Origin: Clostridia bacterium
Lineage (GTDB): Bacteria > Bacillota > Clostridia > UBA1212 > UBA1255
Assembly (NCBI GenBank): GCA_017620915.1
Contig: JAFZSK010000100.1
Location: 1-41,197 of the forward strand
Direction: 5' to 3'
DNA length: 41,197 nucleotides
Position numbers and translations under genes: made by a program
The notes under the pieces: model-generated
Told to the model about the DNA's origin: nothing
The model's input: only the letters and a program-made list of their open reading frames with translations
The model's database searches: none
Part shown: positions 8,042 to 28,702 of the stretch, piece by piece
How positions within the stretch are numbered: position 1 is the stretch's first letter
How the letters are laid out: the number at the start of each line of letters is the position of its first letter

Positions 8042-10318
8042 TCAACCCAGCTCGAACCGGAACTCGTCGCCGTCGCGGCAGTTGTCCCGCTCGAACTTCT
8101 TGCCGTCGGGTAGCGTGACGGTGATCGCGAACTTTTTGGCGTCCGGTTTCGTGCGGCGGAGGGAGATGTTGACCGTGCCGAACGGCGTGGGGACGTTGCC
8201 TTCTGCCCATTCGGTGTTCAGTACGTACAGGTGCGGCTTGACGCGCAGCGTGCGGTAACCGTCCTTTTCGGGATACGCGCCGAGCACCATCGCCGAGAGC
8301 TCGTACGCCGGGGCGGAACTCCAGCCGTGGCACTCGCTGCGGGGACTGTCGGGGTTTTCGCACCAGGTGGTGCAGCGGAAATCCAGCATCTGCTGCCAGC
8401 CCGCGAACAGTTTCGGCGCAAATTCATCGTACAGCCCGGTGAGCTCCAGCGCGCGGAACAGGAACGAGCCCATGGAGAACGTGCAGCGGGCAATTTTCGC
8501 GTCCGGATCCATCGTACGGCGCATCAGCTGCGTCGCGTCTTTGCCGTTGACAATGCCCGCCAGCACCGCCCACAACGACGTATGCTCGCTGAATTCACGG
8601 CGGGTCGGGGTGTTGCGGAACAGCTGGGCGTCGTTGTCGTAGCACTTTTCGCGGATCAGTGCAGTCAACGCCTCCGCCCGCTGCAGATACTCCTTGCTCC
8701 GGGCATTGCGGCCGCAATATTCTGCAATATCCGCGGCGTTTTTCATGGCCGCGACCAGCATCATTGACGCCACGGTCAACGGCTCGCCCTCATATCCGCC
8801 CGGCGTGATGCCCGCCATCCAGCCCGGCACCCAATCCACGAAGGACCAGTACGGGTTTTTGCCCACGAGCCCGGTGGCGTCGCGGAAGATCTCGAAGGAC
8901 TCCAGCGCTTTGTCCACGGTGCCCAGGAACTGCGCCGCCTGCCTGCGCGTGTCGTCCGTCGCCGGCGCGTATCTCAGGTACTCGCGCAGCATGATCACCC
9001 AGAACAGCGTGAAATTCGGTATGATCTGCGTCATTGTGGACGGATAGTTGGCCTGCAGCATGCCGTTGTATATCTGCGAGCGGCCCAGGTCGGTCACGCT
9101 CTTTAAAAGCAGCTTTGTGTCCGCGCTCATGCGCTGCGCGAACCGCATCTCGAGGCAGCTGTCCATGTCGTACTGCTGCTGCTCGAAGTACGGGCAGTCA
9201 ACGAAGATCTCGTGGGCGCAGCAATTGACGGTGTTGACGCTGACCTTCCACATCTCGTTCAGCGCGGGGTCGTTCGACTTGAAACTGCCCTCCGTGGAGA
9301 ATGGGTAGAAGCACGTGCGGTACGTGAGTTCGGGGAATCTGACCGATGGATCGGAGAATTCCAGCCGTATGAAACGGAACGCGCGGTACCAGAAGGGCTC
9401 AAAGGTCAATTCGCCGCTGTCCGGCAGATGGATCACGTCGTATACAAGCGAGATCACATCCGCTTCGGGCAGGTCGTACGCGTCGCGGCGGTCTTTGAAC
9501 AGGTTGCCGTTGCGGTCGCGGATGCCGTAGCATTCGGCGTAATTGATCTTGACCACGGCGCCGGGGGTACCGGTGACGGTGATCCGGGGCAATGCGGTAG
9601 TGTACACGCCCGCGTCCAGTTCGATATAGTCGTCGTCACGGCGGACAATTTCAAACGGCTTGGGCTCCCCGTAGGTTAATTGCGGTATCGGCCGCGGCTC
9701 CAGCGGGTACATGTCCGCGAGGCCGCACAGATTGTAGCCGCCCGGTGTGGGGGGCTGGAGCTGTTCGACGGTCTGGAGCGTTGTCCGGGGGGCGCCCAGA
9801 TGCTCTTCACCGGGAGGCGTAGAGGTGTGGACGCCGGGAAAGTGGCGGAAAGTGACGTTGTCCTCACGCTCGCAGCGCCAGGTGGCGTCGGTGCCGAAGA
9901 GGATCGGCTGGCTGGCCTGATTGGCGTCGGCGGCGCTGTCTGAAGCGGCGGCGTTGTCAACGGGCCGGTCGGGTATGACGGCACCCTCCACCCAGAGCGC
10001 GGGCCGCGAGCCGCGGTATATCGAAATGAACGAGCCCTCCTGCAGGTACAGCACCTTCACCAGGATCTCGTTTTTGCCGGGCTTCAGCAGCGGGAGCAGT
10101 ACGTCGCTCTCGTACGCTTCGAAGTAGCGCGAATATTCGGAGCCCTGGCAGGGGCCTTCGCCCGCGTATTGCCCGTTGATGTACAGGCGGTAACGCGAAT
10201 CGGCGCACATCACGAGCTTGGCGGCTTTGATGGCGGGAGCGTCGATGTCAATGGTTTTGCTGAAATAATAGAAATGCGTGCTGTCCGGCCTTTCGGCGGT
10301 GCGGATCCAGAAACTCAT
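8042..10318 (-). CDS. Alpha-L-rhamnosidase-like glycoside hydrolase (GH78)
   Basis: The product of 758 residues has no signal peptide and is probably cytoplasmic. The first 150 residues form a beta-sandwich (FSKTIDIDAPAIKAAKLVMCADSRYRLYINGQ, typical of the N-terminal domains of GH78), then a second beta domain and an (alpha/alpha)6 barrel. The signature FVDCPYFEQQQYDMD corresponds to the family's DCPxRDE-type motif that carries catalytic acids; the barrel continues through PYWSFVDWVPGW and ECHGWSSAP, and a C-terminal beta domain closes the protein. The ATG at 10318 follows AAAGGAGG. Rhamnosidase activity is the family default; related subgroups act on other deoxysugars. It is the first gene of a GH78-GT2-mnmA unit, behind the noncoding inverted-repeat element. 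Confidence 0.88.
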   Translation of the reverse strand: MSFWIRTAERPDSTHFYYFSKTIDIDAPAIKAAKLVMCADSRYRLYINGQYAGEGPCQGSEYSRYFEAYESDVLLPLLKPGKNEILVKVLYLQEGSFISIYRGSRPALWVEGAVIPDRPVDNAAASDSAADANQASQPILFGTDATWRCEREDNVTFRHFPGVHTSTPPGEEHLGAPRTTLQTVEQLQPPTPGGYNLCGLADMYPLEPRPIPQLTYGEPKPFEIVRRDDDYIELDAGVYTTALPRITVTGTPGAVVKINYAECYGIRDRNGNLFKDRRDAYDLPEADVISLVYDVIHLPDSGELTFEPFWYRAFRFIRLEFSDPSVRFPELTYRTCFYPFSTEGSFKSNDPALNEMWKVSVNTVNCCAHEIFVDCPYFEQQQYDMDSCLEMRFAQRMSADTKLLLKSVTDLGRSQIYNGMLQANYPSTMTQIIPNFTLFWVIMLREYLRYAPATDDTRRQAAQFLGTVDKALESFEIFRDATGLVGKNPYWSFVDWVPGWMAGITPGGYEGEPLTVASMMLVAAMKNAADIAEYCGRNARSKEYLQRAEALTALIREKCYDNDAQLFRNTPTRREFSEHTSLWAVLAGIVNGKDATQLMRRTMDPDAKIARCTFSMGSFLFRALELTGLYDEFAPKLFAGWQQMLDFRCTTWCENPDSPRSECHGWSSAPAYELSAMVLGAYPEKDGYRTLRVKPHLYVLNTEWAEGNVPTPFGTVNISLRRTKPDAKKFAITVTLPDGKKFERDNCRDGDEFRFELG

Positions 10319-10355
10319 ATGGGTGGAGCCTCCTTTGGAATGGATGTCTGGGACA

Positions 10356-10384
10356 ATTATACCAAATTCCGCGGCGGGGGGCAA
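10356..10384 (-). promoter_or_regulatory. Promoter of the GH78-GT2-mnmA unit, overlapping the element end
   Basis: On the minus strand TTGCCC (10384-10379) and TATAAT (10361-10356) are 17 bp apart, with an extended -10 (TGGTATAAT). The upstream hexamer includes the first 4 bases of the inverted repeat that starts at 10381. Confidence 0.6.
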
Positions 10385-10870
10385 GCGGCGCGACCGACGG
10401 CGCTCGCTTGTTCGTCATGACAATACAGTTAGATTCGGACAAAAGTGTTCATTTCTTGTTTTTTATACCATGCGGGGCGCCATCTAGGACGATTTGCGTA
10501 CGCAATTATATTACCAAATCGGACAAAAACATTATTATATGAACATTTAATATCAGATTGGGCGCCTTCTCTCGATTTCCGGCTCTATCAAAGCTTGAGC
10601 GGTTAAGATAAAATGTCTTTTTATTCAATTATTTATACCAACTGAGTTATGAAAGATAGGATTAATATAATTCAGGTAATTGTTTTTATACCATAATTTG
10701 AATTTCGCGCCTTTGAAAATGAGCGAGAGCAAGGAAAAACTGGTATATAATTACGCGAGTTAAGGCTGTTTATACCAAAGGTGGCCCAAAAAATGAAAAT
10801 GAGACAGCCACAATGGAAAAAACAGGCGGACTAGTAAATCTGAGCGAGCGCCGTCGGTCGCGCCGCTTGC
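10381..10870. repeat. 490-bp noncoding element bounded by perfect 28-bp inverted repeats
   Basis: Bases 10381-10408 and 10843-10870 are exact reverse complements over 28 bp, and the match stops at both edges. The 434 bp between the arms are AT-rich, unlike the GC-rich flanks, and hold no credible gene. They contain four copies of TTTATACCA (10462, 10632, 10685, 10769) and one inverted copy (10741, TGGTATATAA), plus GGCGCCTTCTCTCG at 10561, which recurs at 28194. No target-site duplication is visible outside the arms. The layout resembles a non-autonomous (MITE-like) element, but no matching transposase is in the window. The rest of the 10319-10900 gap holds the GH78 promoter on one side and about 30 bp of nothing notable on the other. 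Confidence 0.75.
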
Positions 10871-10900
10871 TCCTCGCTTTGAAATCGGTAGCAGCGCCCG

Positions 10901-28033: not shown

Positions 28034-28545
28034 GAATGAACGGTCTTCTGGCGATTATGCTGTTCCGCAGGTCAATATTTCCTGGTAATATGGATATGGT
28101 TTGGATATGCAAATTTGGTCCGGCGGCGGGTTTGAGCGGTTCGGATATGTGATTTTGGATAATTTTAATGAAAATTAGTTTAATTATCCAGCCGGCGCCT
28201 TCTCTCGCTATTTCGATTTTTGCATCGCTCCCGGATTCTGGATAAATTCAATGTTTTATGAGTCATCTTATACCATTTTTGGCTCCTTCTCCTTGTTATT
28301 GGGTTCCGTCTGTGGTCTTGTGGCTGGATATTTTTTTCATTTTCCGGGTGTTTTATACCATGAGAGCAATTTTTCTCCAATTCGATCTGGATAATTATAA
28401 AGGATTTTAACATTTTTATACCATTCGTAAGGACCGACAATCAAAAATGAACGAGAGCCGCGTTGTGAAAATGGCAATTCTGGATAAATTCAGGCAATTT
28501 TCTGCGGTTTTATACCAGAGGCGCCCGAAAAAAATGAGCGAGAAC
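28034..28545. repeat. Noncoding AT-rich tract with TTTATACCA-tagged degenerate repeats
   Basis: This tract, free of credible genes, holds four TATACCA sites (CTTATACCA at 28267; TTTATACCA at 28352, 28415, 28509), two exact copies of ATTCTGGATAAATTCA (28235 and 28477) with further CTGGATAA variants (28324, 28387), GGCGCCTTCTCTCG at 28194 (also at 10561), and AAAATGA(A/G)CGAGA at 28444 and 28531 (also at 10716). The shared words and their order show common descent with the interior of the inverted-repeat element at 10381-10870. No flanking inverted repeat is seen here. With the tandem repeat that follows, it fills the whole 27957-28707 gap. Confidence 0.7.
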
Positions 28546-28559
28546 GCGGAGCGGCCGGC

Positions 28560-28702
28560 GAGATCCGGCCGCGGATCAGGTGAGAAGGAGCGGCCGACCA
28601 CATCGAGCGTGAGATCCGGCCGCGGATCGGGTGAGAAGGAGCGGCCGACCACATCGAGCGTGAGATCCGGCCGCGGATGGAGTTGGAAGGAGCGGCCGAC
28701 CG
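28560..28702. repeat. 51-bp tandem repeat, 2.8 copies
   Basis: Units begin at 28560, 28611 and 28662, exactly 51 bp apart. Copies 1 and 2 differ at one base; copy 3 is partial and more diverged. Each unit contains a dyad GATCCG-GCCG-CGGATC and a second GC-rich word, GAGCGGCCGACC. The array ends 5 bp before the stop codon of the propeller lipoprotein. It could form stem-loops in the transcript end of that gene. Confidence 0.85.

Follow-up and report, generated by a model that had tools for sequence, protein, structure and literature searches.

A new family of dispersed, MITE-like, non-coding elements with helically phased dyads in a Clostridia bacterium

A family of short, dispersed, non-coding sequences in a rumen-type Clostridia genome, two copies of which (W1 and W2) lie in the window, i.e. 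the whole stretch of 41,197 bp that was analysed, is rated as a new MITE-like variant of unusual architecture. The preferred reading, given about even confidence, is that of a MITE-like, non-coding element, dispersed over the genome, in which about five dyads form a working array at the level of DNA. Compensated pairing, lack of G.U pairs, helical phasing and genomic position point to a structure operating in DNA, rather than to an RNA or to an invertible switch. Protein binding is suggested by the first three of these features, while movement is suggested by the dispersed copies, the inverted ends and an empty site.

The copy in the window

An earlier note on this DNA had described perfect inverted arms of 28 bp, enclosing an AT-rich interior devoid of genes. 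The description was confirmed: positions 10381-10408 and 10843-10870 are exact reverse complements (28/28) and, extended into the flanks, form an inverted repeat of 35 bp with a 94% match; the 434 bp interior has a GC content of 35.5%, compared to 58.7% for the window, and no ORF of at least 100 aa was found inside it. Chance is far from sufficient to explain a perfect 28-bp inverted repeat so spaced, and the arms were accepted as real because the family is multi-copy. They had also been taken for the ends of the element. In other copies, an outer inverted repeat, GGCTCTGCTCCCGATTTCG, is located beyond the inner arms, CAAGCCGCGCGACCGACGGCGCTCG; judged by these copies, the arms lie inside the true ends, and the full element would measure about 530 bp.

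W1 retains the outer repeat on its right side only, at 10881-10899. On the left, host sequence common to the congeners G004 and G006 extends up to about 10368, where divergence begins, and the left end of W1 is therefore truncated. The shared host sequence includes CAATTATACCAAATT, the -10 region of a rhamnosidase-like gene. The comparison of empty sites, proposed in the earlier note, was informative, since flank comparison revealed that the W1 site is empty in both congeners. The same note had rightly reported the absence of a target-site duplication but called it unusual; none is visible because one outer end has been lost, as is expected in such a case. Both W1 arms carry a private variant, GCGGCGCG, at the place of the GCCGCGCG of other copies, which suggests that one arm may have been corrected on the other, rather than youth of the copy. 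The features detected in the window are as follows.

10369..10899, minus strand (by boxes): copy W1, complete apart from its lost left outer end; same direction as the downstream gene 8042-10324
10381..10408, plus strand: inner terminal inverted repeat, left arm
10843..10870, minus strand: inner terminal inverted repeat, right arm
10881..10899, minus strand: outer terminal inverted repeat GGGCGCTGCTACCGATTTC, at the right end alone; left partner missing
10433..10471, minus strand: dyad unit 5, GGACAAAA ... TTTTATACCA, imperfect and bulged
10476..10486, minus strand: unit 5 box, GGCGCCATCTA, a variant of GGCGCCTTCTC
10519..10558, minus strand: dyad unit 4, degenerate in W1, CGGACAAAAAC ... TTTAATATCAG
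10561..10571, minus strand: unit 4 box, GAGAAGGCGCC
10601..10640, minus strand: dyad unit 3, imperfect, GGTTAAGATAAAA ... TTTATACCA
10652..10693, minus strand: dyad unit 2, imperfect, GATAGGATTAAT ... TTTTTATACCA
10716..10730, minus strand: box GCTCTCGCTCATTTT, between units 2 and 1
10739..10778, minus strand: dyad unit 1, CTGGTATATAA ... TTTATACCA
10441..10822, no strand: eleven A/T tracts of at least 4 bases each; centres at 7.5 to 1.0 modulo 10.5 bp, R 0.74
10350..10368, minus strand: extended -10 promoter of the host, TGGTATAAT, belonging to the rhamnosidase-like gene; also conserved in G004 and G006, where the element is absent
28130..28560, minus strand: second copy W2, words TGGATAAATT / TTTTATACCA; orthologue L243 in RUG12823

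The word TGGTATAAA of the W1 class (10464-10777, minus strand) resembles an extended -10 promoter element; most of its copies in W1 are directed at the downstream rhamnosidase-like gene, and the other classes have no such word. A 5S rRNA gene (21-137) is located at the window start.

Family size, mobility and genomic position

The whole genome (G000, 2.57 Mb in 121 contigs) was searched with the 490 bp sequence, and 14 near-full copies were detected, 70-79% identical and aligning nearly gap-free, in addition to fragments. A search for the arm had been suggested in the earlier note, and the arm proved to belong to a multi-copy element; the opposite picture, of a unique arm in a region kept at the same place by relatives, was not found. 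The proposal of a non-autonomous element of unknown family stands, the copies being multiple, dispersed and without match to known families here, while that of a recent mobilisation found no support, given their low identity. The outer repeat GGCTCTGCTCCCGATTTCG also adjoins elements of very different interior.

In G000 the box GAGAAGGCGCC was counted 72 times, when its reversed sequence, used as a control, gave 11 matches; in the congener G003 (rumen MAG RUG12823) the two counts are 64 and 8, and in five other congeners the box is found at chance level. A 16-base version of the box, evaluated in 31 genomes of the order, was clearly enriched in G000 and G003 only. As about 11 of the 72 boxes are possibly due to chance, the copy number is about 50-60. 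About 55 loci were fetched from G000 and 37 from G003, which are both fragmented MAGs; contig ends interrupt many of the copies in G003. Outside the order, the distribution rests on exact patterns and on collections that may exclude near relatives: no match was obtained to three element patterns and one end pattern in viral contigs, by similarity in phages and plasmids, or to one exact core pattern in genome_contigs, a collection which may omit the own or very near genomes, and the pattern of a class-wide scan was too strict to match even the own genome. The elements gave no Rfam match at gathering score, so that a known RNA family was discarded, and no described equivalent of the family was found.

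Several properties of the elements are those of MITEs: they are short, lack a transposase gene, have inner and outer terminal inverted repeats at both ends of several copies, and are dispersed over some 50-60 loci. The family was not filed as a MITE because searches revealed neither a target duplication nor an autonomous relative. At two-ended copies, which are old, no target-site duplication was detected, L008 displaying only a weak 6/8 match, and, within an incomplete assembly, the end pattern was found only at non-coding copies or fragments, with no autonomous relative having the same ends. Two candidate mobilisers were rejected: ISL3 (the ends begin with GGCTCT), as PF01610 is absent from G000 and G003, and RAYT, as no element words occur within 5.8 kb around the RAYT gene of the genome. 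A RAYT-like Y1 transposase gene (G000:C76:13234-13563, L248) is located amid GGGGACAGACC-type repeats; a tandem block of repeats of this type lies upstream of ruvA in G005:C74 (L294), where G000 has L002.

Complete neighbour pairs, based on the author's simple dicodon gene calls, are divergent for 22 copies, tandem for 19 and convergent for 1 (divergent vs convergent, p 3e-6; the window gaps themselves are 4 divergent and 5 convergent). From the surplus of divergent and tandem pairs, copies are placed upstream of promoters, a position which may reflect target choice rather than function. A REP/BIME identity was rejected on the same counts, the preference for 3' ends or convergent pairs being absent. 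The genes downstream of the copies, such as ruvA, rpsL and sugar genes, look unrelated. A GC-rich tandem repeat (CGATGAGGACGGTCGCTCC...CGGCCGGGAACAACACG) adjoins the elements L210, L182 and L217, including a position upstream of rpsL in both carriers.

Dyad pairing, helical phase and word turnover

The body of the element consists of about five units, each of roughly 84 bp, in which a box (CTCTCGCTCATTTT and/or GAGAAGGMGCCcg) precedes an inverted repeat whose arms measure 9-13 bp and whose loop length peaks at 16 nt. Within most elements, one arm word is common to all repeats. Words by class are TGG(T)ATAAAA (window), ATAAACAAAAA, GTCATAGCAAA, GTCTAGCAAA, CGTCTAACAAAA and TCTATAGAAA, and, for further classes, AGTTCAACGATTTT, TGGATAAATT, GGATAAAA and TTTCTCAAAAA. 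L199 has repeats of differing sequence, each of them fully or almost fully complementary.

Perfect dyads of at least 8 bp number 119, against 7-14 in shuffled sequence. Pairing was evaluated over 12 pairs in 56 distinct dyads with a 16-nt loop, in which 8 or more of the 10 inner pairs match: Watson-Crick cells amount to 88%, against 49% when the 3' letters are re-dealt, percentages that lean upward because the dyads were partly selected for pairing. In the same dyads, double-change cells are 205 and extra pair types 34, against 55 and 17, respectively, in shuffles; the diversity of pair types, as many as four at one position, is a less biased sign of compensation. No G.U (G.T) pair is present among the nine inner pairs, despite about 20 other mismatches, and in imperfect dyads G.T is about as common as A.C. 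An excess of G.U, as a signature of RNA, was thus not found.

Dyad centres are spaced by 73-75, 82-86, 94-95, 147-150, 168 and 210 bp, corresponding to 7, 8, 9, 14, 16 and 20 turns, and of the periods tried 10.5 bp fits best, with a few exceptions at 121-122 and 249 bp. In 68 elements, runs of at least 4 A/T recur in phase with a period of 10.4-10.5 bp, the mean nR2 at 10.5 being 4.2, against 1.0 in the flanks and an expectation of 1; no signal was observed at 9.5, 11 or 12 bp, nor in the flanks. The 84-bp tandem period by itself would favour 12 and 9.3 bp too, which is not seen. In W1, all 11 tracts (11/11) fall within about 4 bp modulo 10.5, across 380 bp. Curvature predicted by a wedge model exceeds that of shuffles in 26 of 26 elements (mean z 2.65); with A-tracts recurring at the helical repeat, the elements are predicted to be intrinsically curved.

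Orthologous sites of G000 and RUG12823 carry the same class in the pairs L182/L217, L183/L228 and W2/L243, while a common flank is associated with different classes in L214/L199, L219/L169, L229/L180, L231/L172, L236/L192 and L293/L002 (ruvA). By estimate, about 10 of the 37 G003 loci share flanks with G000 loci, when 1-2 would be predicted from the fraction of the genome covered; the figure is approximate. Two processes could account for the shared flanks: either the words were replaced in situ, or the same promoter regions received insertions more than once. When W2 is compared with L243, loop and spacer differences are clustered, with zero indels within the dyad array, and stems, boxes and nearby flanks are kept, a pattern such as gene conversion would leave. 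At the ruvA locus, RUG12823 and G005 bear other repeats where G000 has L002, so that this locus did not yield a precise point of insertion. The region upstream of ruvA in RUG12823 (L293, 1080-1300) contains hairpins with the word TTCTTGCAAA and a tandem CCCTGCCGTCAGTGTGCACTTG repeat; in the same genome, tandem ACATTTACCCA-type repeats directly follow the dyad array of L213 (400-600), and a similar repeat is located near L174 in G000.

In the mechanism proposed, the dyads, which lie whole helical turns apart on DNA that phased A/T tracts should curve, would be bound on one face by a DNA-binding protein, either a trans-supplied transposase or a host or phage-type regulator. The bound protein could pair the element ends for movement or influence neighbouring promoters. 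Half-site words would change together because array and binder co-evolve, with units copied from one another. Against this reading count the imperfect dyads of W1 itself and the searches in which no target-site duplication, autonomous relative or ISL3-family transposase was found. A stronger claim, that the family is a new category, defined by a promoter-upstream curved array of about five dyads on one face, wholesale switching of words between classes and between orthologous loci of sister species, and a fast co-evolving DNA-binding system, is put forward tentatively, and we regard it as doubtful.

Some of these data would also be produced by an ordinary MITE with functionless dyads, whose arms stay complementary by template-switch correction of quasi-palindromes at replication, and whose units are made alike by tandem duplication and gene conversion: the private variant on both sides of W1, the adjacent units that are near-copies in L173 and in G003 arrays, and the mosaic change clusters, without indels, of W2 vs its orthologue L243. 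This account is rather unlikely, as it leaves unexplained the 10.5-bp phasing of tracts and spacings, the fixed 16-nt loop and the 22:1 divergent to convergent bias. The strongly compensated stems, and a single-strand folding energy of z -8.9, to which the long end arms contribute most, would suit a structured non-coding RNA family, transcribed as five hairpins. Such an RNA is unlikely: no G.U is found in the nine inner pairs though other mismatches are present, G.T is no commoner than A.C, helical phasing would be hard to interpret in an RNA, and the elements lie upstream of promoters and match no Rfam family.

The sharing of flanks between RUG12823 and G000 loci, often with a different word class, and the promoter-side position favour a host regulatory array, composed of non-mobile operator clusters, each bound to its locus, with words that are replaced in situ; against it stand the terminal inverted repeats of many copies, the seemingly unrelated downstream genes and the empty sites in congeners, which make it unlikely. 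The earlier note had suggested a flipping segment, i.e. an invertible switch recombining between the 28-bp arms, which the perfection of the arms would fit. Symmetric ends are expected of any element with terminal inverted repeats, the arms are ends of a dispersed multi-copy family, and no recombinase family was recognised among the 10 window proteins tested: the switch found no support, and is highly improbable.

Significance and relation to known systems

Bacterial interspersed repeats are usually read as RNA hairpins, terminators or transposon remnants. A sequence that varies freely but preserves pairing, length and helical phase bears the mark expected of selection on DNA shape and protein geometry. 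If the reading of a DNA-level array is true, the family would provide natural experiments on the joint change of specificity of a DNA-binding protein and dozens of its sites, and insight into the rewiring of promoters by mobile DNA in gut bacteria.

REP/BIME sequences, which RAYT (Y1) transposases mobilise, are likewise dispersed palindromes, and a RAYT gene is present in G000, but its surroundings contain the different GGGGACAGACC repeat and no element words. REPs favour 3' or convergent positions, the reverse of the promoter side occupied by the present family. Plant CACTA/Spm transposons have subterminal arrays of element-specific short protein sites within conserved ends; they are eukaryotic and lack phased dyads of the present geometry, so that the likeness is one of analogy only. 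With respect to bacterial MITEs, the present family differs in that neither target duplication nor parent transposon was found.

By analogy of position and of protein binding, the latter presumed for the present family, the nearest known MITEs are the Correia elements of Neisseria, which are short, non-coding and multi-copy, with inverted ends, lie mostly immediately upstream of genes and carry an IHF site (PMC10969869, PMC2649163). The two families are alike in shortness, lack of coding capacity, inverted ends, copy number and pre-gene position; the five-dyad phased body, class words and phased A-tracts found here are not described for Correia elements (PMC10969869, PMC2649163). The conjugation switch of pLS20 is a tested system, in which the RcoLS20 operators are helically phased, at divergent promoters, on DNA with a static A-tract bend (PMC4207663). 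Both systems have repeated protein sites, putative in the present family, in helical phase, together with an A/T-tract bend, here predicted, and divergent promoters, and for the plasmid operators phase and bend are known to matter; RcoLS20 acts as a known regulator at one plasmid locus, whereas the present family comprises dozens of dispersed copies with no known regulator.
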